Below, piece after piece: positions 2,335 through 19,490 of a DNA stretch of 20,701 nucleotides. Numbering within the stretch: the first letter of the stretch is position 1; every line of letters begins with the position of its first letter. Both the position numbers and the translations under genes were made by a program. A model generated the notes under the pieces. The model did not search any database. It worked only from the letters and a program-made list of their open reading frames with translations, and had not been told where the DNA came from. Source of the DNA: Oscillospiraceae bacterium (GTDB taxonomy: Bacteria > Bacillota > Clostridia > Oscillospirales > Oscillospiraceae); contig JAFSFK010000192.1 of the NCBI GenBank assembly GCA_017435245.1, positions 1 to 20,701 of the forward strand, in the 5' to 3' direction.

Positions 2335-3729
2335 TCAGTCCACCATTCTGGTCTTGCAGATCTCGCTGAAGTAGTAGCGGCTCTTCTTCCAGACACGCTC
2401 TCCGGTCTCGTGGTTGACCCAAGTCAGGCCGAAACGGATGCGGTAGCCGTCCAGCTCCTCGTAGGAGTCAGCATCGTTCCAGTAGTAATAGCCCTTCAGG
2501 TTGATGCCCATACGCAGGGCACGGGCACACATACGCAGATGCTCACGGATGTAGGTAATACGTTCGGGATCGTCGCACTCTTTTTCCTTATCGTAGACAT
2601 TGGGCAGAGCACAGCCGTTCTCTGTGATGTAGATGGGGATGTTGTGGTAGCGCTGGGACACATACTGCAGCACATCCAGAAGTCCGGGAGGATAAGGGGT
2701 AAACTGCTGCCCCGGCGCAGAGTAGAAGCTGGAAACATAGTTGCTGAGCAGCCGGTTGTTAGGGTTATACTGGGTGCGGCTGGCAGAGTAGTAGTTGATG
2801 CCGATGAAATCCATAGGCACAAAGTACTTATCCAGCTGCTCCTGATAACCTTCGGGCATAGCTGCCTTGATCTCAGGGCATTCCCGGAACAGCCGCTGGG
2901 GATAATGTCCCTCCAGCATTGCCTCGGTCCACCAGCCGAAGCGCCACTCCATCTGCCGCTCCACAGCACCCAGATCCTCCTCATTCAGGTGGACAGGGGT
3001 GATGGGGGTGATGCAGTTGACAGCGCCGATCTTACCGCCCTGGTTCAGGGACTTGTAAAGCCGTACCGCACGGAAGTGGGCGATCAGACAATTCTGGGCA
3101 GCTACCAGACTGTTTTCAAAATCCGTCTGGAACGGAGGGAATGTGCCGGCACCGTAGCCACGGGCAACAGCGATATCACACTCGTTGAAGGTGGACCACA
3201 GCTTCACCCGGTCGCCGAAGGATTCAAAGCAGACCTTGGCAAAAGCCTCGTACCAATCGGGGAACTCCGGATTGGCATAGCCGCCCTTTTCCATCAGGCA
3301 CTGGGGCAGATCCCAGTGGAGGATATCCACAAAGGGCGTGATATTGTTCTCCAGCAGCTTGTTGATGACCTTGTTATAGAACTCGATGCCCTTGGGGTTC
3401 ACCTCACCCACACCGGTGGGAATGACCCGGGGCCAGGCAATGGAGAAGCGGTAGGTGTTCTGGCCGGTCTTGGCCATATCCTCGATGTACTCCTCGTAGT
3501 GATCATAAAAGAAGCAGCCACGATCCGGCACTTCGGAAGTGTAGGGCTTGCCCTCCCGCTTGGTAATGGGACCGCCGGGCAGCTGCTCCGGCACGAAGCC
3601 GGCATACTTTTCGGCGTAGTAGTCCATCACACTGGGACTCTTGCCGTCCCGGTCCCAGGCACCCTCGCACTGAAAAGCAGCGTTGGAGGTACCGATCAAA
3701 AAATCTTCGCCAAGTTTAAATCCAAACAT
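2335..3729 (-). CDS. GH1 beta-glucosidase-like enzyme, downstream copy
   Basis: This 464-residue protein has the usual length of a one-domain GH1 TIM barrel and no signal peptide. Family marks include QCEGAWDRDGK (20-30), RFSIAWPRVIP (94-104), HWDLPQ (138-143), the acid/base glutamate in STFNECD (E183) and the nucleophile glutamate in YITENG (E370). The C-terminal loop reads SYEELDGYRIRFGL (422-435). In canonical beta-glucosidases the matching loop is FEWADGY, and in 6-phospho-beta-glucosidases it carries a Ser/Lys phosphate-binding set, so an unphosphorylated beta-glycoside is the better guess. Two oddities are shared with the paralogue upstream: the residue after the acid/base Glu is Cys instead of the usual Pro (NEP), and the second loop Trp is Glu. 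The gene lies 13 bp after the first GH1 gene and has a good AAAGGAGAG ribosome site. Catalysis on a beta-glucoside or beta-galactoside is likely; the true substrate is unknown. Confidence 0.88.
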   Translation of the reverse strand: MFGFKLGEDFLIGTSNAAFQCEGAWDRDGKSPSVMDYYAEKYAGFVPEQLPGGPITKREGKPYTSEVPDRGCFFYDHYEEYIEDMAKTGQNTYRFSIAWPRVIPTGVGEVNPKGIEFYNKVINKLLENNITPFVDILHWDLPQCLMEKGGYANPEFPDWYEAFAKVCFESFGDRVKLWSTFNECDIAVARGYGAGTFPPFQTDFENSLVAAQNCLIAHFRAVRLYKSLNQGGKIGAVNCITPITPVHLNEEDLGAVERQMEWRFGWWTEAMLEGHYPQRLFRECPEIKAAMPEGYQEQLDKYFVPMDFIGINYYSASRTQYNPNNRLLSNYVSSFYSAPGQQFTPYPPGLLDVLQYVSQRYHNIPIYITENGCALPNVYDKEKECDDPERITYIREHLRMCARALRMGINLKGYYYWNDADSYEELDGYRIRFGLTWVNHETGERVWKKSRYYFSEICKTRMVD

Positions 3730-3742
3730 AACACGCTCTCCT

Positions 3743-5140
3743 TTAATCTACCATCTTTGTTTTACAGATCTCACTGAAATAATGGCGGCTCTTTTTCCAG
3801 CGCCGCTCACCGGTGCTGCTATCCACCCAAGTCAGACCGAAACGCAGGCGGTAGCCATCCAGCTCCTCGTAGGAATCGGCATCGTTCCAGTAGTAGTATC
3901 CCTTCAGGTTGCATCCGGCACGAAGCGCACGGGCGCACATCCGCAGATGCTCCCGGAGGTAGGTGATCCGCTCCGGATCGTCGCATTCTTTCTCCGGGTC
4001 ATTGATGTTTTCAAGGGCACAGCCGTTCTCAGTGATATACACCGGGATATTATGGTAGCGGTCCTTGATATACAGCAGCACATCCAGAAGTCCGGGAGGA
4101 TAAGGCGCAAACTGCTGACCGGGGCTGGAATAGAAGTTTTCCACATAAGTGGAAAGCATCGGTCTGTCCGGGTCGTACTGGGTACGGTTACAGATATAAT
4201 AATTGACCCCCAGGAAGTCCATGGGGATAAACCACCGATCCAGATCCTCCTGATAGTTGACCGGCATATTATCCCGGACGTAGGCACATTCCCGGATCAG
4301 CCGCTGAGGGTATCTGCCCTCCAGCATAGGCTCTGTCCACCAACCGAACCGGCGCTCCGTCTGACGGGCAGCGGCATCGATATCCTCCTGGCACATCCGG
4401 GCGGGCGTGATGGAGGTGAAGCAGTTGACAGCGCCGATCTTGCCCCCAAGGTTCATGGATTTATACAGCCGTACCGCCCGGAAATGGGCGATGAGCACGT
4501 GATGACCTGCCAGCTGACCTTCCCGGTTTCCTTCCCGGAAGGGCGGGAACCGGTTGGTGCCGTAGCCGCTGGTGACGGCAATATCCGACTCATTAAAGGT
4601 GGACCACAGCTTTACCCGGTCACCAAATGCCTCGAAGCAGACCTTGGCATAGGCTTCAAACCACTGGGGAAACTCCGGGTTCAAAAAGCCGCCCTTTTCC
4701 ATCAGGCACTGGGGAAGATCCCAGTGGTACAGGTCCACAAAGGGAGTAATATTGCATTCCAGGCACTTATTGATGACCTTGTTGTAAAACTCGATGCCCT
4801 TGGGATTGACCTCACCCACACCGGCAGGAATGATCCGGCACCAGGAAAGACTGAAGCGGTAGGTATTCTGACCGGTCTTTTTCATATCCTCGATGTAGGC
4901 TTCATAATGATCGTAAAAGAAGCAGCCACGGTCCGGCAGATCCTCAGAGTAAGGCTTCATCCGCCGGGTAATATCCACCGTTCCGGGAACATAGCCAGCA
5001 GCATATTTTCCGGCAAATTCCCGGGCGTAATGCTCCATAATGTTCTCGCTCTTGCCATCCCGATCCCAGGCGCCCTCACTTTGGAAGGCAGAGTTGCCGG
5101 TACCGATCAGGAAATCCTTGCCAAGCTTGAATCCAAACAT
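3743..5140 (-). CDS. GH1 beta-glucosidase-like enzyme, upstream copy
   Basis: This 465-residue protein aligns with the downstream GH1 protein from end to end and differs by one residue in length, so the two are tandem duplicates that have since diverged. Both catalytic glutamates are present: E184 in STFNESD and E371 in YITENG. HWDLPQ is at 139-144. The residue after the acid/base Glu is Ser rather than the family Pro. The active-site loop SYEELDGYRLRFGL matches the paralogue. No signal peptide is present. The stretch at about residues 45-68, next to the substrate entrance in GH1 folds, and the stretch at about 200-215 differ most between the copies, which may mean different aglycone preferences. 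It is the second gene of the operon. Its AAGGAGA ribosome site overlaps the TAA of the nucleoside-hydrolase gene, and the ATG lies 10 bp after that stop, implying co-translation. Confidence 0.88.
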   Translation of the reverse strand: MFGFKLGKDFLIGTGNSAFQSEGAWDRDGKSENIMEHYAREFAGKYAAGYVPGTVDITRRMKPYSEDLPDRGCFFYDHYEAYIEDMKKTGQNTYRFSLSWCRIIPAGVGEVNPKGIEFYNKVINKCLECNITPFVDLYHWDLPQCLMEKGGFLNPEFPQWFEAYAKVCFEAFGDRVKLWSTFNESDIAVTSGYGTNRFPPFREGNREGQLAGHHVLIAHFRAVRLYKSMNLGGKIGAVNCFTSITPARMCQEDIDAAARQTERRFGWWTEPMLEGRYPQRLIRECAYVRDNMPVNYQEDLDRWFIPMDFLGVNYYICNRTQYDPDRPMLSTYVENFYSSPGQQFAPYPPGLLDVLLYIKDRYHNIPVYITENGCALENINDPEKECDDPERITYLREHLRMCARALRAGCNLKGYYYWNDADSYEELDGYRLRFGLTWVDSSTGERRWKKSRHYFSEICKTKMVD

Positions 5141-6584: not shown

Positions 6585-9500
6585 TTAAGAATTCTTGACT
6601 TTTTTCTTATTCTTGCGCACCACCGCAATGGCGATGACCGCAAGGATCACGGCGACCGCAAATACGCCGCCAAAGGCGATCAGCACAATCGTCTTTGCCT
6701 TGTCATCGCTAACCTCAGGTGCGGCAATGCCATCGGAAGGCTCTGTGGCTTCCCCCTCCACCCTGGTCACGGGATCCGGGGTGTTCAGAGAAGTCTCACC
6801 CTTGGTAATGGTGTAGACATCGCCCTCACGGACATAGTGGTAAGCACCGATGACCGTGTCGGTGATGCCGCCGTCGGGCTGATAGACCTTGATCTCGGCA
6901 TGATCGCCCAGGCCGTCGCCGTGGATATTCACAAAGGCGTCATTGACCAGCATCATATCCCCGTTGAGGTTGCCGCTGATGATCACATCTCCCTTGAACT
7001 GGTTAACGCTGGGAATGTAGGATTCGCCGTCGTGACCTGCATTGTCCAGCACCACTGCAGCACTGCCTTCTTTATTGGCAGAATCGGAGATCTTGACATT
7101 GGTCAGATATACACCGCCGTTGGCGTAGACCGCACCGGCATTTACCAGCGCAGAGTTGCTCCGCATTTGCGTATCGGAAATATCTGCCATACCCTTGGTG
7201 CCCACATAGAGGGCACCGCCTTCCTTGGCAGAGTTCTTGTTGATCGCACAGTTTCTCATGGTGATGGATGTGTCGGATTCCACAAAGACACCGCCGCCGT
7301 TACCCACAGCGGTATTGGCTTCCACAACGGTATCCTCCACCACCGCATTGCCCATAATGTACACCAGGATGCCCGCACCGTTGGCAGAAGCGGTGTTGCC
7401 GGTGAAGGTGCATCCGGTAATGGTGCCGTTACAGCGATAACCGATCTGCATACCGCCGGCCTTACCGATGGCATAGTTGCCGCTGACGGTAACATTTTCC
7501 ATCTCGTACTTGGTTTGCTGGGCCAGGTAGATACCTGCACCGCCGGAATTACCGCCCTTATCGCCGGTGATCCGGTTGCCGGTAACGGAGCAATTCTTCA
7601 TAACCAGCTCGGTTTCGGCGTAGATACCGCCGCCGCTGACATCCGAAATATTGTCACGGATCACACCGCCCAGGATCTCCACCTTACAACGGCTGGAGCG
7701 AATACCGCCGCCGCTGAGGCTTGCGTAGTTCTCAGCAACCACACCGCCGTTCATCTGCAGGGTCGCATCGGACTGGATCAGAATGCCGCCGGCGTGACCT
7801 TCGGTGTTCTTATTGCCGGTGATGGAACCGTCATTGAGGATCATCTGCGCCTTCGTACGCAGCACGACACCGGCACCGTTACCGTCAATGAGTTCATTTT
7901 CGGAGATGATACCGCTGTTCATCGTGACCTTGGTGGCGCTGACATACAGGCCTGCGCCCTCAAACTGGGCAATGTTCTTGGTGATGGTGACGCCATCGAT
8001 GATGGAGTCGTTGCCGGCAAGATACACACCTGCGCCACGGTAAGCCTTATTTCCGGAGATAGTGCCACCGTACAGCTTTACAGTAGCGTTGGAGTAGGCA
8101 CCGATGCCGCCGCTGGTCTGGTGCGCCTCATTGTTGGTAATGGAGCCGCCGTACATCGTCAGGTTGCCCTTACCCTGGGCAATGATGCCGCCGCCATGGC
8201 CGCTGCCGGACTTCTGTGTCAGTGCCTTGTTGCCGGTGATGGAACCGCCCCGGAGATTAAAGTAGCCACGCTGGCCACGAACCAGAACGCCTGCAGCACT
8301 GACAGAGGTAGTGTTACCGGAAATAGTACCGCCGTACATATTCACCACGCCGTCGCTGTACTGCACAACGCCGTTTTCATCCTTCCAGGAAGCCTCGGTG
8401 ATGTACATACCGCCGCCTTCCTTGCCGGCGTGGTTGCCGGAGATGGAGCCACCGTAAATATTGGCAATATCGCAGATGTACAGACCGCCGCCGGTCTTCT
8501 TGGAGGTGTTGCCGTTTATGCTTCCGCTTCTGAGGTTAAAGGTACCATCACGGGAGACAAAGACACCGCCGCCGTTGCCCTCTGTTGCGTTATTGCGGTC
8601 GATACGGCCGCCGGTCATATTCACGTAGCCCTTGGACTGGATGACCATACCGCCGCCGTTTCTGCCCTTGTTGCCGGTGATCTCACCGGATACGAACTCC
8701 ACCTTGCTCTCTTTACCGACGGTCATACCGCCGGCAGCCGTCAAGCCTTGGTTATTGGTGATCTTCACGCCGTCCACAAGAGCGGTTGCGTTGCCGCAGT
8801 AGACACCGCCGGCCTCGCCCTTGGCAGTATTGCCGGTGATCTTACCGCCCAGCAGCTTGATCTGGGCATCCACGGCATAAACACCTGCGCCGTTGCTGTC
8901 GGCCGTGTTGTTGGAGATCTCGCCGCCGTACATTTCGAACTTGGCGTTCTTAAAGGCAACCACACCGCCGCCGGAGCCTTCCGTCTTGTTGCCGGTGATC
9001 TTGCCGCTGTACAGGCGGAAGATGGTTCCTTCCTCTGCCGCATAGATACCGCTGGCACCTGCACTGGCATTGGTATTACCGCCGGTGAGCATACCGGAAA
9101 TATAGTTGCCCTTGGAATCGGTATGGGCCGTGCAGTCACACAGGTTCAGTGCCACACCGCCGCTGAGGCGGTAAATACGCTGTCCCTCCCCTGTCTGCCT
9201 GACGGTATAGCCGTTCAGGCACAGGGTGATCTCCTCCTGAACGCTCACTGCCACCATAGACTTCAGCTCCACATCCCCGATCAAATAGTAATGACCGGCA
9301 GTGCTGGGCAGGCTGGAAGTATCCGTCCAGGCAGTCCAGACCACATTTTCGTGGCCGCACTCGTCCTTTTCGTGGGGGGCGTGGATCGTCTTGGGATCCT
9401 GGATCATATACAGTCCGTCCTCCAGCACCTGCATGGTGTGGGTGACGTTCTCGTCATAAGTAAAGTATGCCAGCTCATCGGCTGCAACGCCCTTGCCCAG

Positions 9501-12500
9501 CAGCTGCTTGCCGCTTGCATAGAGGCTTTCCAGATCGGTGACAAATCCGATCCTGCAGCCATCCTCCAGGCCATCGGTCACAAAGGGATTACCCAGCACA
9601 ATGACCAGATTGCTTGTCTTCTTTTCCACGGTATTTCCGGTGATCTTAGCCGCACCGTTGATGGTCAGCGTACCCTCGGAGCCAAAGTCCACACCGCCGC
9701 CACGATGAGAAGCGGTATTTCCGGTGATGGCTGCGCCGTCGATGGTCAGATCGCCGGCAACGCAGAACACACCGCCGCCGGAGCGGGAGCTGTTTCCGGT
9801 AACCACTGTGCCCTTACCCAGGGTCAGGCTGCCGCCGCTCTGATAGACACCGCCGCCATTGGCGGTAACTGCGGTATTATTGGAAATTTCAAAATTCTCC
9901 GTATAGACATCGCCGCCCATAACCGCAAGGCCGCCGACGCCATTGGCTTTGTTTCCGGAGATCTTACCGCCCAGGAGCTTCACTGTACCACCGTCCACAC
10001 GCAGACCGCCAACAGAGGAGCTGTCGCCAGCATCGTTGCCGGAGATCTCGCCGCCGGTCATAGTAAAGGTACCGCCGCCGATGCGCATACCTGCGCCGTC
10101 TCTGCCGTAGGACCGGTTGTTCTTGATAACGCCGCCGCTGAGTGTAAAGACGGGATCGTTGGTACCGGAGATATACAGGCCTCGGACCTGATTGCCGGTG
10201 ATCTCACCGCCGGTCATTACGGCAGTACCGCCGATCTGATGGATGGTACCGGAATCCAGAGAATGAGAGATATTGCCGGTAAACACCACGCCATTTTCAA
10301 TGGTCACATTACCGCCGGTGATCAGCATACCGGGAGCCTTGAATGCGGTGTTGCCGCTGATCTCACCGCCGGAGATGGTCACTTCGCCGTCGGCGATCCG
10401 GATACCAGCTGCCGTGCCTTCTTCACCGGCATCGTTTCCGATGATCTTACCGCCGGTCATATGGAATCGACCGGCCTGGACACGAACGCCTACGCCCTCA
10501 GTCTTGGTAAAGGTGTTATGGCTGATCTCGCCGCCGGAGAGATTGAAGGTACCGTTCTGCACCAACACCGTGCGGGCATTGTTGCCGGTGATCTTACCGC
10601 CGGACATATTCAGTTCGCCACCACGGATGGTGATGACGCCCTCGGGATTGGTACAACCGCGGATCACACCGTCAATGATATTGACAATGCCGTGATCCTC
10701 CATACGGATCGCCATACCGGTACTTTCGTTGGTAACACCGGTACCGTCAATGATGCCGGCATAGAGCGTAAACGCAGGTGCCGCATCCGTTTCCGCATCC
10801 TTGTAAAGGCCAACAACGCCGCCCTTAGAGGAGCCGGGGATAAGCTTACCGGAAATATAGTTGCCGCTGTTGTCAGTATGTGCGGTACAGTCGCAGATGT
10901 TCAGCTTTGCACCGTTGGAGAGTCGGTAAACACGGTTATTTGCGGTAACAGTAAAGCCGTTAAGGCAAACAGTAATCTCCTCTGCAGTGGTCACACCCAC
11001 CATAGATGCCACATCCACATCACAGGTCAGATACCAGTGGCCGGAGGTTGCAGGCATAGTAGTGGCATCCCCCCACGCCTTCCAGGTCACACTTTCGTGA
11101 CCGCATGCATCCACCTCGTGAGGCTCGTGGGCAGAGTTGGGATCCTGGATCAGATACAGGCCATTGTCCTGTACCTTCAGGGAATGGTTGATCTTTGTGT
11201 CGTAGGAAACAAAGGAGAGCAGATCATCCTGCACAGCATTGGTTGCCAGCAAAAGCTTGCCGGTTTCAAACAAAGTGGTCAGGTCCGCAGTGAAGCTCAC
11301 ACCTGCGCCCTGGTTGAAGGTGCTCAGTGCAACACTCTGTCCGGCAGGCAGATAGATATTGTTGGTCTTGCCTTTGACGGTGTTGTTTTTGATCACCGCG
11401 TTGCCGCCAACAGTTACATTACCCTTGATGATATACAAACCGCCGCCGTTCGCCACAGCGCTGTTTGCGGTGATGCTGCCGCCGGTAACATTCAAAGTAC
11501 CGCCGTTGGAGAGCACTGCACCCCATTTTCCAATGGTGTTGCCGGTTATCTCGCCGCCTGTAATATTCAAAGTACCGCCGTCTATGCGGACAGCGCCGTT
11601 ATTGGTTACGGTGTTGCCGGTAATGCTCACTCCGGACAGGGTCACATTACCGCCTGCCACCAGCACTGCAGCGCCGTTGGTCGCTGTATTGCCGCTGATG
11701 ATACCGCCGCTCAGTGTAGCATTACCTCCGCCTACACGGATGCCGGCACCGGAGGACTTTCCGGAATTATTTCCGCTGATCTCACCACCGGTCATAGTAA
11801 AGATACCGCTATTGACGCGGACAGCCGCACCGTCAAAGGCTGCAAATTCGTGATTTGCCACCTTGCCGGTACCGGAGAGGTTCACGGTACCGCCGTCGAT
11901 CAAAATACCACGGGAGGTGTTGCCGCTGATCTCACCGGCAGAGAGGTTGAAGGTACCGCCCTTGACGGTAACCGCTGCGCCGGTGTTGGCGCTGTGGGAA
12001 ATGCCGGTGATCTCACCGCCGGTCATATTCACCGTACCGCCGGTAATGTAAATACCGATGGCGCTGCCGCCGGAGATGACCGTACCGGAAAGGCTGACGC
12101 TGCCGGAAGCAATGCTCAGCACACCGGTATCCTTGCCGGTAACGGTGTTATTAGCAATGGTACCGCCGGAAAGATTCACAGTTCCCTTGGGAATATGGAT
12201 CACCGCACCGGCAGAGGTATTGCTGCGGATCACGCCGCCCAGCATATTAAATACAGCGTTGGTATACAGCGCACCGCCGTTGCCTGTAATGGTATTGCCG
12301 GAGATCTCGCCACCGAACATATTGAAAGTGGCATCCGTCTGGTTGACGATGGTACCGGCACCATTGGTGGTATTTCCGGTAATGATACCGTCATAGAAAT
12401 TGATCACAGTGCCTTCGTGCTCCGCAAACAGAGCGCCGCCGGTAGCGGCATTGCCGCCGGTGATCTTACTTGCCACATAGTTGCCATCGGCATCAGTGTG

Positions 12501-14090
12501 GGCAGTACAATCACAGATGGTCAGCTTTGCGCCGCCGCTGAGGCGGTAGATCCGGGCTGCACCGGTCTGGATGATGTCATAGCCGTTCAGACACAGAACG
12601 ATGTCCTGGGCAGTAGACACTCCCACCGCAGCTGTCAAGTACACGTCGCTGGTCAAATAGTAATGACCGGTGGTGGTGGGCAGGGTGGCTGTACCCTTCC
12701 AGTCCGTCACATTTTCGTGACCGGGCTTGTAGTCACCGCCATTGTGGCCACGGCCTGTGATGGTGACCTTCCCGTCTGCCATCGTCATTTCGTGACCCAT
12801 ATCACTGGTGAAGAACTGATTGGCATCGGCCTGAGCCGTAACCGCAGAGATCGCCAAATTGGTAGCTGCCGCCTGACCGTCCCGGGTGGAGATGCCGATG
12901 CAGGCACCCTCGCTCAAAGGCACTTCGGTGCTGATCGCCACCGTACGTCCGCCGTTGACGAGATTCAGGTTCTGCAGGATCTTGCCCACATAGTTGTCGG
13001 CAATGACCGTCTTGCCACCCACGGTCACAAGGCTTGCGCCGCTGGTGGTCTGGTTATCCACACCGCCGCCACGGTTATTGGCCCGGTTGCCGGTGATGGT
13101 CACATTCTGCAAAAGAACACTCTTGGCATTTTGGAGGAAAATACCGCCGCCGTGGTTTGCGGTATTATTCGTAATGGTACCGCCTGTAATATTGATGACG
13201 GTGCCGTTATCGTTATCATTGTTTCTGGTGCTGATGGCACCGCCGGTGGTTCTGGAGGTGTTGCCGGTGAGGGTGCCGCCAGCCATATTCAGTGTACCCT
13301 TGTAGACGTAAACAGCACCGCCTCGCTGGGCCGTACAGTTACGGATCACGCCGCTGTTGATATTTACCACACCGCCGGAGGTAATGATGACTGCACCACC
13401 GCCGGAGGAAGCGGTATTGTTAACATTGGTACCGTCGATGATCACATCGTTCATCGTAAAGGTGCCTGCGCCGTACATACCAACGGCACCGCCCTCGGAG
13501 ATGCCGGGGATCAGCTTACCGGTGACATGATCGTCACCATCGGTATGGGCAGTGCAGTCACACACTGTGACACTGCCTCCGGCGATCCGGAAGATCCGGC
13601 GGACATTGCCGGTAGTGGGGGCAGAGATATTCTTGCCGTTGAGGCAAATGACGATATCCACATTGGAAGAAACGGCAATGGGCGCACTCAGCGCAAGAAC
13701 GCTGTCCACATCCAGATAATAGTGGCCGGACACATCGGTCTTAATATCGGAAGCCTGGGTAACGGGAGTCCAGGTGATATTTTCATCGCCGTGGCCGCAC
13801 TTGGTATAACCCTCCCGGGTATTATGAGAAGATTCCGCCTCCACAACAGGAGCGGTCTCAGTGACCGTTTCCGGAACTGTAGGCTCTTCGGCAGCCACAG
13901 GCTCTGTCTGCACTTCCTGTGTTTCCTCAGCAGCAGGCTCAGAAGCCTCCGGCAGTGTTTCCAAGGCTGCAGGCACAGTCTCCTGCAGGATCTCTTCAGG
14001 AGCAGTCTCCCCCTCTGCCACAACACCCAAGGGCATCATAGACAAGAGCATCGCCACGCACAGCAGCATCGCCAGAAAACGTTTTTTCAT
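6585..14090 (-). CDS. Giant exported beta-helix repeat surface protein (2,501 aa)
   Basis: The protein starts with a clear signal peptide (MKKRFLAMLLCVAMLL; likely cleavage after VVA at residue 25). A low-complexity Glu/Pro/Thr/Ala stretch follows to about 90. The rest is four cassettes, each opened by a head with CGH or PGH, CLNG and CDCTAHTD motifs (starting at residues 98, 456, 996 and 1578). Each head is followed by long runs of roughly 20-residue coils of the type GGxISGNTA or GGGVY, as in right-handed parallel beta-helices and Pmp-like repeats. Cassettes 2 and 3 close with a GLYxIQDP motif; the last cassette is the longest. A transmembrane helix lies at about 2467-2491 with a basic tail RKNKKKVKNS. 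No LPXTG sorting motif is visible, so it is membrane- rather than sortase-anchored. A role in adhesion or glycan contact is inferred. The gene is monocistronic, with its own promoter and a GGAGG ribosome site before the ATG. Confidence 0.85.
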   Translation of the reverse strand: MKKRFLAMLLCVAMLLSMMPLGVVAEGETAPEEILQETVPAALETLPEASEPAAEETQEVQTEPVAAEEPTVPETVTETAPVVEAESSHNTREGYTKCGHGDENITWTPVTQASDIKTDVSGHYYLDVDSVLALSAPIAVSSNVDIVICLNGKNISAPTTGNVRRIFRIAGGSVTVCDCTAHTDGDDHVTGKLIPGISEGGAVGMYGAGTFTMNDVIIDGTNVNNTASSGGGAVIITSGGVVNINSGVIRNCTAQRGGAVYVYKGTLNMAGGTLTGNTSRTTGGAISTRNNDNDNGTVINITGGTITNNTANHGGGIFLQNAKSVLLQNVTITGNRANNRGGGVDNQTTSGASLVTVGGKTVIADNYVGKILQNLNLVNGGRTVAISTEVPLSEGACIGISTRDGQAAATNLAISAVTAQADANQFFTSDMGHEMTMADGKVTITGRGHNGGDYKPGHENVTDWKGTATLPTTTGHYYLTSDVYLTAAVGVSTAQDIVLCLNGYDIIQTGAARIYRLSGGAKLTICDCTAHTDADGNYVASKITGGNAATGGALFAEHEGTVINFYDGIITGNTTNGAGTIVNQTDATFNMFGGEISGNTITGNGGALYTNAVFNMLGGVIRSNTSAGAVIHIPKGTVNLSGGTIANNTVTGKDTGVLSIASGSVSLSGTVISGGSAIGIYITGGTVNMTGGEITGISHSANTGAAVTVKGGTFNLSAGEISGNTSRGILIDGGTVNLSGTGKVANHEFAAFDGAAVRVNSGIFTMTGGEISGNNSGKSSGAGIRVGGGNATLSGGIISGNTATNGAAVLVAGGNVTLSGVSITGNTVTNNGAVRIDGGTLNITGGEITGNTIGKWGAVLSNGGTLNVTGGSITANSAVANGGGLYIIKGNVTVGGNAVIKNNTVKGKTNNIYLPAGQSVALSTFNQGAGVSFTADLTTLFETGKLLLATNAVQDDLLSFVSYDTKINHSLKVQDNGLYLIQDPNSAHEPHEVDACGHESVTWKAWGDATTMPATSGHWYLTCDVDVASMVGVTTAEEITVCLNGFTVTANNRVYRLSNGAKLNICDCTAHTDNSGNYISGKLIPGSSKGGVVGLYKDAETDAAPAFTLYAGIIDGTGVTNESTGMAIRMEDHGIVNIIDGVIRGCTNPEGVITIRGGELNMSGGKITGNNARTVLVQNGTFNLSGGEISHNTFTKTEGVGVRVQAGRFHMTGGKIIGNDAGEEGTAAGIRIADGEVTISGGEISGNTAFKAPGMLITGGNVTIENGVVFTGNISHSLDSGTIHQIGGTAVMTGGEITGNQVRGLYISGTNDPVFTLSGGVIKNNRSYGRDGAGMRIGGGTFTMTGGEISGNDAGDSSSVGGLRVDGGTVKLLGGKISGNKANGVGGLAVMGGDVYTENFEISNNTAVTANGGGVYQSGGSLTLGKGTVVTGNSSRSGGGVFCVAGDLTIDGAAITGNTASHRGGGVDFGSEGTLTINGAAKITGNTVEKKTSNLVIVLGNPFVTDGLEDGCRIGFVTDLESLYASGKQLLGKGVAADELAYFTYDENVTHTMQVLEDGLYMIQDPKTIHAPHEKDECGHENVVWTAWTDTSSLPSTAGHYYLIGDVELKSMVAVSVQEEITLCLNGYTVRQTGEGQRIYRLSGGVALNLCDCTAHTDSKGNYISGMLTGGNTNASAGASGIYAAEEGTIFRLYSGKITGNKTEGSGGGVVAFKNAKFEMYGGEISNNTADSNGAGVYAVDAQIKLLGGKITGNTAKGEAGGVYCGNATALVDGVKITNNQGLTAAGGMTVGKESKVEFVSGEITGNKGRNGGGMVIQSKGYVNMTGGRIDRNNATEGNGGGVFVSRDGTFNLRSGSINGNTSKKTGGGLYICDIANIYGGSISGNHAGKEGGGMYITEASWKDENGVVQYSDGVVNMYGGTISGNTTSVSAAGVLVRGQRGYFNLRGGSITGNKALTQKSGSGHGGGIIAQGKGNLTMYGGSITNNEAHQTSGGIGAYSNATVKLYGGTISGNKAYRGAGVYLAGNDSIIDGVTITKNIAQFEGAGLYVSATKVTMNSGIISENELIDGNGAGVVLRTKAQMILNDGSITGNKNTEGHAGGILIQSDATLQMNGGVVAENYASLSGGGIRSSRCKVEILGGVIRDNISDVSGGGIYAETELVMKNCSVTGNRITGDKGGNSGGAGIYLAQQTKYEMENVTVSGNYAIGKAGGMQIGYRCNGTITGCTFTGNTASANGAGILVYIMGNAVVEDTVVEANTAVGNGGGVFVESDTSITMRNCAINKNSAKEGGALYVGTKGMADISDTQMRSNSALVNAGAVYANGGVYLTNVKISDSANKEGSAAVVLDNAGHDGESYIPSVNQFKGDVIISGNLNGDMMLVNDAFVNIHGDGLGDHAEIKVYQPDGGITDTVIGAYHYVREGDVYTITKGETSLNTPDPVTRVEGEATEPSDGIAAPEVSDDKAKTIVLIAFGGVFAVAVILAVIAIAVVRKNKKKVKNS
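9117..9359 (-). repeat. Head module 4 of the giant surface protein
   Basis: This encodes the head starting at Cys1578: CGHENVVW, HYYL, LCLNGYTV, RIYRLSGG and CDCTAHTD. It follows the GLYMIQDP closing motif of cassette 3. The cassette it opens runs about 800 residues, the longest of the four. Confidence 0.8.
10872..11105 (-). repeat. Head module 3 of the giant surface protein
   Basis: This encodes the head starting at Cys996: CGHESVTW, HWYL, VCLNGFTV, RVYRLSNG and CDCTAHTD. It follows the GLYLIQDP closing motif of cassette 2 and opens a beta-helix run of about 500 residues. Confidence 0.8.
12492..12725 (-). repeat. Head module 2 of the giant surface protein
   Basis: This encodes the head starting at residue 456: PGHENVTDW, HYYL, LCLNGYDI, RIYRLSGG and CDCTAHTD. 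The first Cys of the other heads is replaced by Pro here, while the CLNG and CDC cysteines remain. Confidence 0.8.
13539..13799 (-). repeat. Head module 1 of the giant surface protein
   Basis: This encodes the head starting at Cys98: CGHGDENITW, HYYL, ICLNGKNI, RIFRIAGG and CDCTAHTD. It is the most divergent of the four heads and has slightly longer loops (261 bp against 234-243 bp). Confidence 0.78.
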
Positions 14091-14322: not shown

Positions 14323-14351
14323 TTGACAACCATTTCAAAAAGTATTACTAT
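14323..14351 (+). promoter_or_regulatory. Promoter of the amidohydrolase pair
   Basis: A perfect TTGACA (14323-14328) lies 17 bases before TACTAT (14346-14351), a -10 box matching TATAAT at four positions. The leader to the ATG at 14382 would be about 25 nt. It fires divergently from the surface-protein promoter about 85 bp away. Confidence 0.6.
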
Positions 14352-14381: not shown

Positions 14382-15134
14382 ATGTATTTTATCGATTTCA
14401 ATTGTGCCATCGGCGAGCCGATGCGCTCTGAGCGGTACAGCACCGCCGAGGGCCTGCTTCAGTGGCTGGACAAATATCAGATCGATTGCGCTCTGGCATA
14501 TCACAGCGAGGCTATGCGGGAGCCGGAAATGGGAAATGCACTCATGGCGCAGGCCGCTGCCGCCTCCGGTGGACGGCTGAAAACCTGTTTCGTCCTGAAC
14601 CCCAGTCTGGAAAGCCTTGGGATCCCCGGTGAGGGTACACCTTTGGAGCGGCTGAAAAAGCACCGCCCCAGCGCTGTGCGGATCTTCCCCGGAGAGCAGC
14701 TGTACCCCTTTGACACCTTTTACGCCGAGGAGATCCTTACGCTCTGCCAGCAGCTGCGCCTGCCTCTGATCGTGGATTGTCCCTATGACAACGTCTTTCT
14801 GACCCAGCTGCCTCAGGTCTGCCGGGCTTATCCCGATGTACCGATCATCCTGCTGCGGTTCCTGTACAACCGCAGCAGGCAGTATATGCCCATCCTTAGG
14901 AAGCTTCCCAATGTCTATCTGGATATGAGCACCCACATCGACGTGGGCGGAATGGAAGAGGTGGTGCGGCGGTTCGGAAGCGAGCATCTGCTGTTCGGCA
15001 GCGGATTGCCTGTCTATGAACCCTCCGGTGCCCTGGGACTTCTTCTGTATGCCCAGATCAGCGATGCTGACCGGGAGAATATCGCATCCGGTAACTTCCT
15101 GCGTTTGGAAGGAGGCATCCGCTATGACGATTAA
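14382..15134 (+). CDS. Amidohydrolase-family protein lacking metal ligands
   Basis: The start is placed at ATG 14382, behind GGGAGA, because the bases before it hold a promoter. The 250-residue product has the fold pattern of small amidohydrolase-2 TIM-barrel proteins and matches its downstream neighbour in order: LDMSTHIDVGGMEEVVRRFG (180-199) and then LLFGSGLP (203-210). The catalytic ligands are gone. The N-terminal HxH motif is DFNCAIG (5-11), the mid-barrel His strand is LIVDCPYDN (129-137), the AHQGG strand is ILLRFLYNR (156-164), and the FGTD aspartate is FGSG. It may be a non-catalytic partner of the next gene product, a ligand-binding protein, or an enzyme with different chemistry. 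Its last 11 bp overlap the next gene, consistent with equal co-production. Function is unknown. Confidence 0.75.
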   Translation: MYFIDFNCAIGEPMRSERYSTAEGLLQWLDKYQIDCALAYHSEAMREPEMGNALMAQAAAASGGRLKTCFVLNPSLESLGIPGEGTPLERLKKHRPSAVRIFPGEQLYPFDTFYAEEILTLCQQLRLPLIVDCPYDNVFLTQLPQVCRAYPDVPIILLRFLYNRSRQYMPILRKLPNVYLDMSTHIDVGGMEEVVRRFGSEHLLFGSGLPVYEPSGALGLLLYAQISDADRENIASGNFLRLEGGIRYDD

Positions 15135-15948
15135 AGAAAAAGCCCTGAAAGGTCTGCCTCTGGACATTCCCATCATCGACGCCCACACCCACACCGGTCC
15201 CAAATACCGCCGTGGTTGGCACCAGAATCCGGATTACGCCAATGTCGCCGGCCAGCTGAAGCTGTACGACCTGCTGGGCATCGATTGCTGCGTCACCGCT
15301 CCCCATCCTCTGTGTGACGCAATGTCGGTTTTGACCAACGAGACCGCCGCCCGGGAAGCAGAACTGTTCCCAGGCCGGGTTTACGGCTATATTTACATCG
15401 CTCCCAGCAACGGTATGGACATCTGCCGGGAGAATCTTCGCAGATACAGCAAGAATCCGGCCTTCGTAGGCATCAAGTTCCTCAGCGGTTATCAGGGACA
15501 GTGCGATGACCCGGTATACCGTTACGCCGCTGACTTTGCCAACGAAGCACGCTGTCCCCTGCTGCTGCACACCTGGGCAGATAACCCCTCCACCAAATCT
15601 ATGGCAAAGCTGGCCCAAGAGCATCCCGACCTGAGTTTACTTATTGCCCATCAGGGCGGCGGCAAGGCAGCCGACACGCTCCGCACCGCCCCTTATATGA
15701 AGGACATCCCCAATATTTATCTGGAGCTGTGCGGCTCTCTGCACAACACCCTGAGCTTTTCGGATATCGCCGGGCTGGTGGGCGTGGACAGAATGATCTT
15801 CGGCACCGATGCCATTGATCTGGATCCCCGGTTCGATTTCGGTCGGCTGGCCATTTCTGACCTGCCCGACGATGCCAAGAAAATGATCTTTGCCGAAAAC
15901 TACCTGCGCCTGCTGGAGCACTCCCAGCTTGGCAAGATCCAATTATAA
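15124..15948 (+). CDS. Amidohydrolase-2 family metal-dependent hydrolase or decarboxylase
   Basis: The start at ATG 15124 is fixed by a strong GGAGG 8 bases upstream and overlaps the previous gene by 11 bp. The 274-residue protein holds the complete family metal set: DAHTHTG (H21, H23), IKF (K118), LLLHTWAD (H149), LIAHQGGG (H176) and FGTDAID (D229). The family contains hydrolases, lactonases and aromatic-acid decarboxylases acting through one or two divalent metals. It has no signal peptide, so it is cytoplasmic. A strong terminator follows directly. The preceding gene encodes a metal-less relative, so the two products may form a hetero-oligomer. The substrate cannot be read from sequence; a small carboxylate, lactone or phenolic acid released by nearby glycosidases is one possibility but is speculative. 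Confidence 0.85.
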   Translation: MTIKEKALKGLPLDIPIIDAHTHTGPKYRRGWHQNPDYANVAGQLKLYDLLGIDCCVTAPHPLCDAMSVLTNETAAREAELFPGRVYGYIYIAPSNGMDICRENLRRYSKNPAFVGIKFLSGYQGQCDDPVYRYAADFANEARCPLLLHTWADNPSTKSMAKLAQEHPDLSLLIAHQGGGKAADTLRTAPYMKDIPNIYLELCGSLHNTLSFSDIAGLVGVDRMIFGTDAIDLDPRFDFGRLAISDLPDDAKKMIFAENYLRLLEHSQLGKIQL

Positions 15949-15954
15949 TCATTT

Positions 15955-15983
15955 CAGCCGGAGGTCCCCCTCCGGCTGTTTTT
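15955..15983 (+). terminator. Intrinsic terminator of the amidohydrolase pair
   Basis: A perfect 10-bp stem (CAGCCGGAGG at 15955-15964, CCTCCGGCTG at 15969-15978) with a 4-base loop is followed by TTTTT. It begins 6 bases after the stop codon. Confidence 0.92.
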
Positions 15984-18731: not shown

Positions 18732-19490
18732 TTAAAATCCCATATCGTCCCGGACGGATTTCATAATCCGCAGCATAGGCTGAGGGAAAGAAGAATTTGC
18801 ATCGTGCTCAATGGTGCACAGCACCATACAACACCCCAGATGGATGCCCAGTCTGCGGTGCAGGCTGCACTGACCGCCGGAAAGGAACAAAAACGGAATT
18901 CCCAGTTCCTCCTTCAGAAGATTGGTGATCCGCAGATTTTCCAGCTGCTGTTCCATAGTATCGGCGCCGGTGACGATCTTCACCACATCCGCACCTCTGC
19001 GTTTTTGCTCCAGTGCCACCTCCAGCACCTTTTCCGCAGGGGTAAAGGTGAAAATATGGGAGGACATCAACACCTCAGCGCCCTGGGCGTGGAGCTTGTC
19101 GATCAGCTCCATTTGCTTGCGGATGGCTTCGGGGTCATCCGTCAGCTGCATAGGATGCTTGCAGTAATGATCGCCGGGCACATCGCAAAGGGTTGCGCCG
19201 TACTTCGCCCAGGTCAGCAGACCTTCCGCCAGCACTTCATCCGGGGTATCGCCGTTATTGCGTCCCCGGTAATTGGTCACATAGCAGGGTCTGTCCCGCA
19301 TCTCCCGAATCAGCTGTTCATATACTTCCGGATTCTGATACTCCGGCTTCAGCCACTCTGCCTGCAAACAGAATGCCTCCGCACCGTCACACAGGGCATT
19401 GCGGATCCGTCCGATGGCAAGGTCGGGCGTTTCGCATATTAACATCGCCGTCAGCAGCGGTTTTGGGTGGTTCAAAAATGTAGGATTCAT
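18732..19490 (-). CDS. Divergent type I 3-dehydroquinate dehydratase-like protein
   Basis: This 252-residue protein has the length and strand order of class I DHQase, which dehydrates 3-dehydroquinate through a lysine Schiff base. The conserved pair is visible: H145 in LMSSHIFTFTP and K171 in GADVVKIVTG. HRRLGIHLG (211-219) and a late SSFPQPML (233-240) correspond to the Arg and SAPGQ-loop regions. The fit is imperfect: the ELR substrate motif near residue 45 reads AEWLKP, and the TxR strand reads TNYRGRNNG. The protein may therefore act on a related carboxylate instead of, or as well as, dehydroquinate. No other shikimate gene is nearby. It is preceded by a strong AGGAGG and is monocistronic. 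I am confident in the superfamily, less in the reaction, and give no gene symbol for that reason. Confidence 0.72.
   Translation of the reverse strand: MNPTFLNHPKPLLTAMLICETPDLAIGRIRNALCDGAEAFCLQAEWLKPEYQNPEVYEQLIREMRDRPCYVTNYRGRNNGDTPDEVLAEGLLTWAKYGATLCDVPGDHYCKHPMQLTDDPEAIRKQMELIDKLHAQGAEVLMSSHIFTFTPAEKVLEVALEQKRRGADVVKIVTGADTMEQQLENLRITNLLKEELGIPFLFLSGGQCSLHRRLGIHLGCCMVLCTIEHDANSSFPQPMLRIMKSVRDDMGF

Follow-up and report, generated by a model that had tools for sequence, protein, structure and literature searches.

An amidohydrolase-fold pseudoenzyme encoded together with an intact relative: a probable two-subunit amidohydrolase from an Oscillospiraceae bacterium

The gene pair and the lost metal site

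The window, that is, the whole analysed stretch of 20,701 nucleotides from an Oscillospiraceae bacterium, carries two overlapping genes on its forward strand, the first of which encodes an amidohydrolase-fold protein that lacks the metal ligands, while the second encodes a relative that has kept them. The two genes and the features that accompany them are listed here in the order of their positions:

14323..14351, + strand: promoter-like site TTGACA-17-TACTAT, 5' of gene 1 (10/12; consensus match only)
14382..15134, + strand: gene 1, a metal-less amidohydrolase-fold pseudoenzyme of 250 aa (ATG at 14382, stop ending at 15134)
14400..14408, + strand: N7-C8-A9 of gene 1, replacing HxH (H21 and H23 of gene 2), from the alignment with gene 2
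14679..14681, + strand: R100 of gene 1, replacing the strand-4 Lys (K118 of gene 2), same alignment
14775..14777, + strand: D132 of gene 1, replacing the strand-5 His (H149 of gene 2), same alignment
14856..14858, + strand: R159 of gene 1, replacing the strand-6 His (H176 of gene 2), same alignment
15003..15005, + strand: G208 of gene 1, replacing the strand-8 Asp (D229 of gene 2), same alignment
15110..15115, + strand: AGGAGG inside gene 1, read directly, the likely ribosome-binding site of gene 2
15124..15134, + strand: overlap of 11 bp between the genes, from the start of gene 2 to the stop of gene 1
15124..15948, + strand: gene 2, an intact amidohydrolase of 274 aa with the ligand set HHKHHD (from its reading frame, its PF04909 match, the ligand table and its place in the partner clade)
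15955..15978, + strand: terminator-like hairpin with a 10-bp stem and T5, 3' of gene 2 (consensus match only)

Both proteins are matched by the PF04909 (Amidohydro_2) profile, gene 1 at 45.6 bits and gene 2 at 61.4 bits (E 1.6e-16) against a cut-off of 26.4, and the NCBIfam models gave a name to neither. The two are only 22% identical over 231 columns and are therefore not a recent tandem duplicate. An overlap of 11 bp, claimed in the initial annotation, agrees with the start and stop positions. The shared promoter and terminator that it also claimed correspond to sites that flank the pair and are consensus matches, in a region with four promoter-like and four terminator-like sites where 1.8 and 2.5 are expected.

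At the six ligand positions gene 1 reads NARDRG against HHKHHD in gene 2, so that the full amidohydrolase-2 ligand set described for the second protein and the change at every matching position described for the first are both confirmed, the strings NCA, LIVDC, LLRFL and FGSG being correct as given. The predicted fold of gene 1 is an amidohydrolase TIM barrel, the fold on which the earlier reading depended, and gene 1 is, judged from its sequence, a member of PF04909 by descent and fold and not a metalloenzyme of the usual type. Among 71 homologues of gene 1 the ligands are lost in 67 (62 keep none of the six, four incomplete proteins lack every one that falls within their length, and one keeps one), and the four that keep all six are at most 29% identical to gene 1; conservation of the loss, a check that the initial annotation had proposed, is thus found in homologues, and the loss is not an accident of a single sequence. 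The replacements themselves are stable within the gene 1 subfamily, with Arg at the Lys site in 67/71 and at the strand-6 site in 61/71, and the A1 relatives of gene 1 (29 proteins, down to 39% identity) share 23 invariant columns, including N7, R18 and R100.

With six of six ligand positions changed, gene 1 could be taken for a decaying duplicate, but this is barely credible: the ligand-free state is shared across the homologues, 29 of which nevertheless have 23 invariant columns in common, the gene 1 clade is separate from the partner clade (see below), and dN/dS in the lineage is low. In four loci of one genus distant from gene 1 (L053-L056), the ligand-poor gene gave dN/dS values of 0.04 (at dS 0.085, with few changes), 0.07 (at dS 1.4) and 0.05 (at dS 2.0), the last two being near saturation, and the partner gene gave 0.02 at dS 0.25; these values come from a set of ten comparisons, of which six were saturated in dS and which lies outside gene 1 itself. 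Decay of gene 1 was rejected on the subfamily conservation and the low lineage dN/dS. To judge from the ligand loss and invariant columns in its homologues, together with these ratios, the kind of protein to which gene 1 belongs is maintained by selection without a metal site.

The 5' neighbour of the pair, at 6585-14090 of the window on the - strand, encodes a 2501-aa right-handed beta-helix protein with many short repeats, which as read from its N-terminus is probably secreted, and a promoter-like TTGACA-17-TATAAT (12/12) stands 5' of this gene at 14237-14209 on the same strand. The 3' neighbour is a glycosyl hydrolase family 3 gene. At 2335-5140 (- strand) lie two similar adjoining genes, whose products have 464 and 465 aa; the first has a glycosyl hydrolase family 1 match, and a nucleoside hydrolase-like gene adjoins the two. 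The product of 18732-19490 (- strand) resembles type I 3-dehydroquinase (49.9 bits), and no further gene of the shikimate pathway was noticed in the window.

Pairing, fusion and descent

To find relatives, a gene 1 profile was run against 391 genomes of the class and a closer one against a genome-contig collection, PF04909 was used on 61 genomes of the family, and the class was searched again with a partner profile; the class searches scored up to six candidates per genome and gave shortened lists, and the loci inspected are part of the matches. At all 47 testable lineage loci that were inspected, the ligand-poor gene lies directly 5' of the intact gene (37 gene pairs, with the ligand-poor gene first in every one) or is fused N-terminally to it (10 fusions). 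Left out of the 47 were L051, L108 and L151, where the place of the partner is off the contig, and L105, at a contig start, where only the tail of the upstream barrel is visible. The co-occurrence of the adjacent pair in other genomes that the initial annotation had put forward for checking was therefore recovered, and homologues of gene 1 commonly standing alone, which would have spoken against a partnership, were not encountered among these loci.

At 45 of the loci the ligand-poor member is readable at all six positions, of which it keeps none in 31, one in 13 and two in one, and the 14 loci with one or two positions kept count against the two-subunit explanation given below. The intact partner at the same loci has HHKHHD in 39, HHKDHD in three (L049, L052 and L159) and is cut by the contig end in three (L053, L054 and L072). 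At the two other loci, L079 and L080, the ligand-poor member is a C-terminal piece only, with Gly at the Asp position, and the partner was read by eye only. The HHKDHD set, which has Asp for the strand-5 His, was seen in the intact halves or proteins of L049, L052, L105, L151 and L159 and is possibly a changed metal site in some intact partners.

In the genome-contig collection, all 13 loci found with the gene 1 profile, which are among the 47, were paired or fused, and the titles of this set name Bacillota (including Paenibacillus cymbidii), Armatimonadetes, Latescibacterota, Verrucomicrobiia, a PVC-group bacterium, Zipacnadia and unclassified bacteria, so that the pair or fusion occurs in at least four named phyla when Zipacnadia is counted as a class of Armatimonadota. 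From the partner side, 31 of the 34 listed matches of at least 175 bits have a ligand-poor neighbour or half, two are at contig ends and one is L105, although this test was not blind, since the profile was built from paired partners; matches at or below 163 bits include solo enzymes and a reversed layout. Two ligand-poor PF04909 proteins of family genomes, L035:1498-2322 (RRSTHS) and L037:1492-2535 (NHQHMS), have no second PF04909 match within about 1.5 kb on either side, which counts against partnership; both lie outside the lineage sets and score only 25 and 31 bits against the gene 1 profile. A further overlapping pair at L119:4090-5593, in which the first protein reads HHKHHG (five of six ligands) and the second HRYENG, falls in neither main clade.

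The source assembly itself (1.56 Mb, 63% complete) gave eight PF04909 matches on five contigs, with a two-part unit on each, namely the window pair, a second pair (on C52) whose genes overlap by 4 bp, and three fusions, which are 543, 552 and 558 aa long. In all three fusions the N-terminal half is without ligands and the C-terminal half has HHKHHD; Pfam places the ligand-less half of the fusion on C90 below its cut-off and does not list that of the fusions on C38 and C135. When the C90 protein was used as a query, in a search restricted to candidates between 0.55 and 1.75 times as long as the query, 91 homologues were found, of which 88 have at least 526 aa and whose source names include Clostridia, Lentisphaerota and Victivallaceae. 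An alignment of 51 of these 91 has HHKHHD in the C-terminal half of every protein, and in the N-terminal half none of the six positions is kept in 50 and one is kept in a single protein; the gene 1 profile matches the N-terminal half of this fused family with an hhalign E of 5.6e-33. A model of the fused protein (544 residues, pLDDT 95.8, pTM 0.93) predicts that the two barrels hold a defined arrangement, and no two-barrel PDB chain of this kind was present among the 50 Foldseek matches listed or the four sequence matches. The existence of natural fusions makes the case for partnership stronger than adjacency alone would.

A quick tree of 108 hand-chosen rows, with SH-aLRT as its sole measure of support, placed 50 ligand-poor proteins in one clade (SH-aLRT 99) and 42 partners, gene 2 among them, in another (98), with 16 solo intact proteins, for which no second match was present in the fetched flanks, outside both. 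The trees of the two members mirror each other (r 0.769 over 42 pairs and 0.861 when only the 25 unfused pairs are taken, with neither value reached in 2000 permutations), a correlation that includes shared descent and was calculated without a neutral control pair.

It could be argued that the two genes encode independent enzymes that are co-transcribed only and form no physical complex, as operon products need no contact and neither adjacency nor mirrored trees are proof of it. This explanation is unlikely in the light of the 10 fusions among the 47 loci, the two-barrel length of 88 of the 91 fused-protein homologues within the length range searched, the constant order of the genes in 37 of 37 pairs, and the confident model of the fused protein. 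It is likewise quite improbable that gene 1 encodes an enzyme of its own, with a metal-free chemistry in the same pathway: the subfamily does have conserved residues, several of them at former ligand positions, but pairing and fusion persist while the replaced residues change between subfamilies, and an independent enzyme would be expected to occur alone somewhere, which it does at none of the testable loci.

A second layout was also seen, in which the intact amidohydrolase comes first and is followed by a ligand-poor protein with a GHWPF-like motif. Fifteen such pairs were found (L107, L111, L112, two in L113, L115, L116, L117, two in L118, L120, L153, L156, L157 and L160); in L114 the ligand-poor member of this layout stands at a contig start, and in L154 the intact gene is without an adjacent ligand-poor gene, which counts against partnership. 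Under midpoint rooting, the reversed layout's ligand-poor genes are set off from the main ligand-poor clade, but when the tree is left unrooted, a single branch (support 93, not starred) has all 65 ligand-poor rows, from both layouts, on one of its sides. Given the latter placement, a single ancient loss of the ligands, common to both layouts, is possible, and no claim of two independent losses is made.

A proposed two-subunit amidohydrolase

The product of the pair is probably an obligate hetero-oligomeric amidohydrolase, to which gene 1 and gene 2 contribute one kind of subunit each. In this system, gene 2 would provide the catalytic, metal-binding barrel, and gene 1, a paralogue that was retained with the same fold but has no metal site, would stand in for the second subunit of a homodimer, where it would either keep the catalytic barrel in working form or complete the active site of gene 2 from the side. 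A one-chain version of the same machine would be represented by the fusion proteins, which have about 520-560 aa, and the overlapping frames in the window would couple the synthesis of both products. If a metal-less copy took the place of one subunit, this would account for the fusions, for the coupling of the frames and for the conservation of the pairing. The proposal of the initial annotation, that gene 1 is a retained pseudoenzyme acting as the partner of its active relative, is supported by the conserved loss, the pairing throughout the testable loci, the fusions and the predicted fold; physical contact of the unfused products is an inference, as are the stoichiometry of the complex, what the metal-less half does and which chemistry is carried out.

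A narrower version of this explanation, and one compatible with it, is that gene 1 serves as a ligand-binding or allosteric subunit, whose emptied site, with R100 and R159, forms an anion pocket through which a substrate, product or effector is sensed and gene 2 is tuned. This may be considered possible but somewhat doubtful. The stability of both Arg replacements in the gene 1 subfamily and the presence of N7, R18 and R100 among the invariant A1 columns are in its favour, but other paired ligand-poor subfamilies differ at these positions, as in the fused P0089, which has N-K-I-D-E-G, so that an anion pocket is not the shared role of the whole lineage. Since the former ligand positions carry different residues from one subfamily to another, the pocket has no single conserved role, and support of the catalytic barrel or completion of its site is ranked above effector binding because the replaced residues vary while the pairing is constant.

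A precedent for two different amidohydrolase-fold chains in one heteromer is found in the 2-aminoisobutyrate hydroxylase AibH1H2, which in the portions of the reports cited is described as an (alpha-beta)2 heteromer of two different amidohydrolase-superfamily subunits, one catalytic and the other proposed to be structural; AibH1 binds a metal to which a structural role is ascribed, and AibH2 acts as an oxygenase with a dinuclear Mn/Fe site (PMC10401708, PMC12141560). The window pair is like this system, as far as it is described there, in that it consists of two amidohydrolase-fold proteins, both of PF04909 and with the fold of gene 1 predicted. Unlike AibH1, gene 1 keeps none of the six ligand positions, and one-chain fusions exist in its lineage. 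No AibH chain was found among the sequence and structure matches listed, which leaves room for a remote kinship.

Dihydroorotase is a member of the amidohydrolase superfamily. Another example of an inactive homologue with a role in a complex is the ATCase-pDHO of Pseudomonas aeruginosa, where, according to the part of the report cited, an inactive dihydroorotase homologue is required for the activity of its partner enzyme (PMC7053772); that partner is a transcarbamoylase, as opposed to the PF04909 amidohydrolase that accompanies gene 1. In ACMSD, which belongs to this fold family, the cited text describes a dimer of two like subunits, each with zinc, in which Arg239 enters the active site of the other subunit (PMC11650718). 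No conserved equivalent of this Arg239 was found in the ligand-poor lineage, where the analogous column (R166) has Arg in 44 of 103 ligand-poor rows, against 18 of 95 intact rows, in a poorly aligned loop. For AdoMetDC with its inactive homologue and for the PRO and ENZ proteins of TbPRMT1, the section cited reports that the enzyme gains activity or stability from its inactive relative (PMC10211241); these heteromers, so described, have other folds than the window pair, while the proposed principle of enzyme and pseudoenzyme is alike. The window pair would thus belong among the enzyme-pseudoenzyme heteromers, with the fusions and the fused model lending indirect support to a complex.

Neighbouring genes and a possible wider class

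The genes that accompany the pairs were examined in 78 neighbour proteins from 29 loci, which comprise 74 of 97 mechanically listed neighbours and four added by hand, two pieces being one split gene (L099). These gave 10 DegT aminotransferase, 5 Gfo/Idh/MocA oxidoreductase, 3 xylose-isomerase-like and 2 phosphotriesterase matches, with the DegT count biased upward because two of the hand-added neighbours (L077 and L098) were chosen as presumed aminotransferases. Across 16 pair-bearing genomes, of roughly two dozen seen, there are 44 strong DegT matches (>180 bits), and 8 of them lie within 5 kb of a lineage pair, where about 0.3 would be expected according to a hand estimate from length alone. 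The aminotransferase beside one pair resembles sugar and scyllo-inosose aminotransferases, and further neighbours have scores with inositol dehydrogenase and hydroxypyruvate isomerase models that are below the cut-offs. These enzyme types suggest that some pairs may serve sugar or cyclitol catabolism; no sugar-type enzyme of these kinds adjoins the window pair.

On a broader scale, a tentative proposal, which has a reasonable chance of being right but falls short of an even one, is that a widespread and ancient class of two-barrel amidohydrolases exists, in which a metal-free barrel has replaced one protomer of an ancestral homodimer and shapes the active site or substrate range of its partner. 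This class would take in overlapping pairs, fusions and the reversed order, and the substrates of many copies would be aminated or oxidised sugars or cyclitols. Judged by titles and the openings of abstracts, no paper on such amidohydrolase pairs was present among the open-licence literature listed, a survey that is weak as proof of absence.

Family models see a plain amidohydrolase here, and in the three fusions of this assembly the ligand-less half stays below the Pfam cut-off or is not listed. If the two proteins are obligate partners, the intact subunit expressed alone may be inactive or give misleading results, and functional screens would need the pair. The pairs and fusions, in their two gene orders, could serve as a natural series for the passage from a homodimeric metalloenzyme to an enzyme-pseudoenzyme pair. 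As a minor observation on the neighbouring genes described above, the DegT aminotransferase gene beside one of the pairs (L099:10203-11450) is split by one in-frame TAG.
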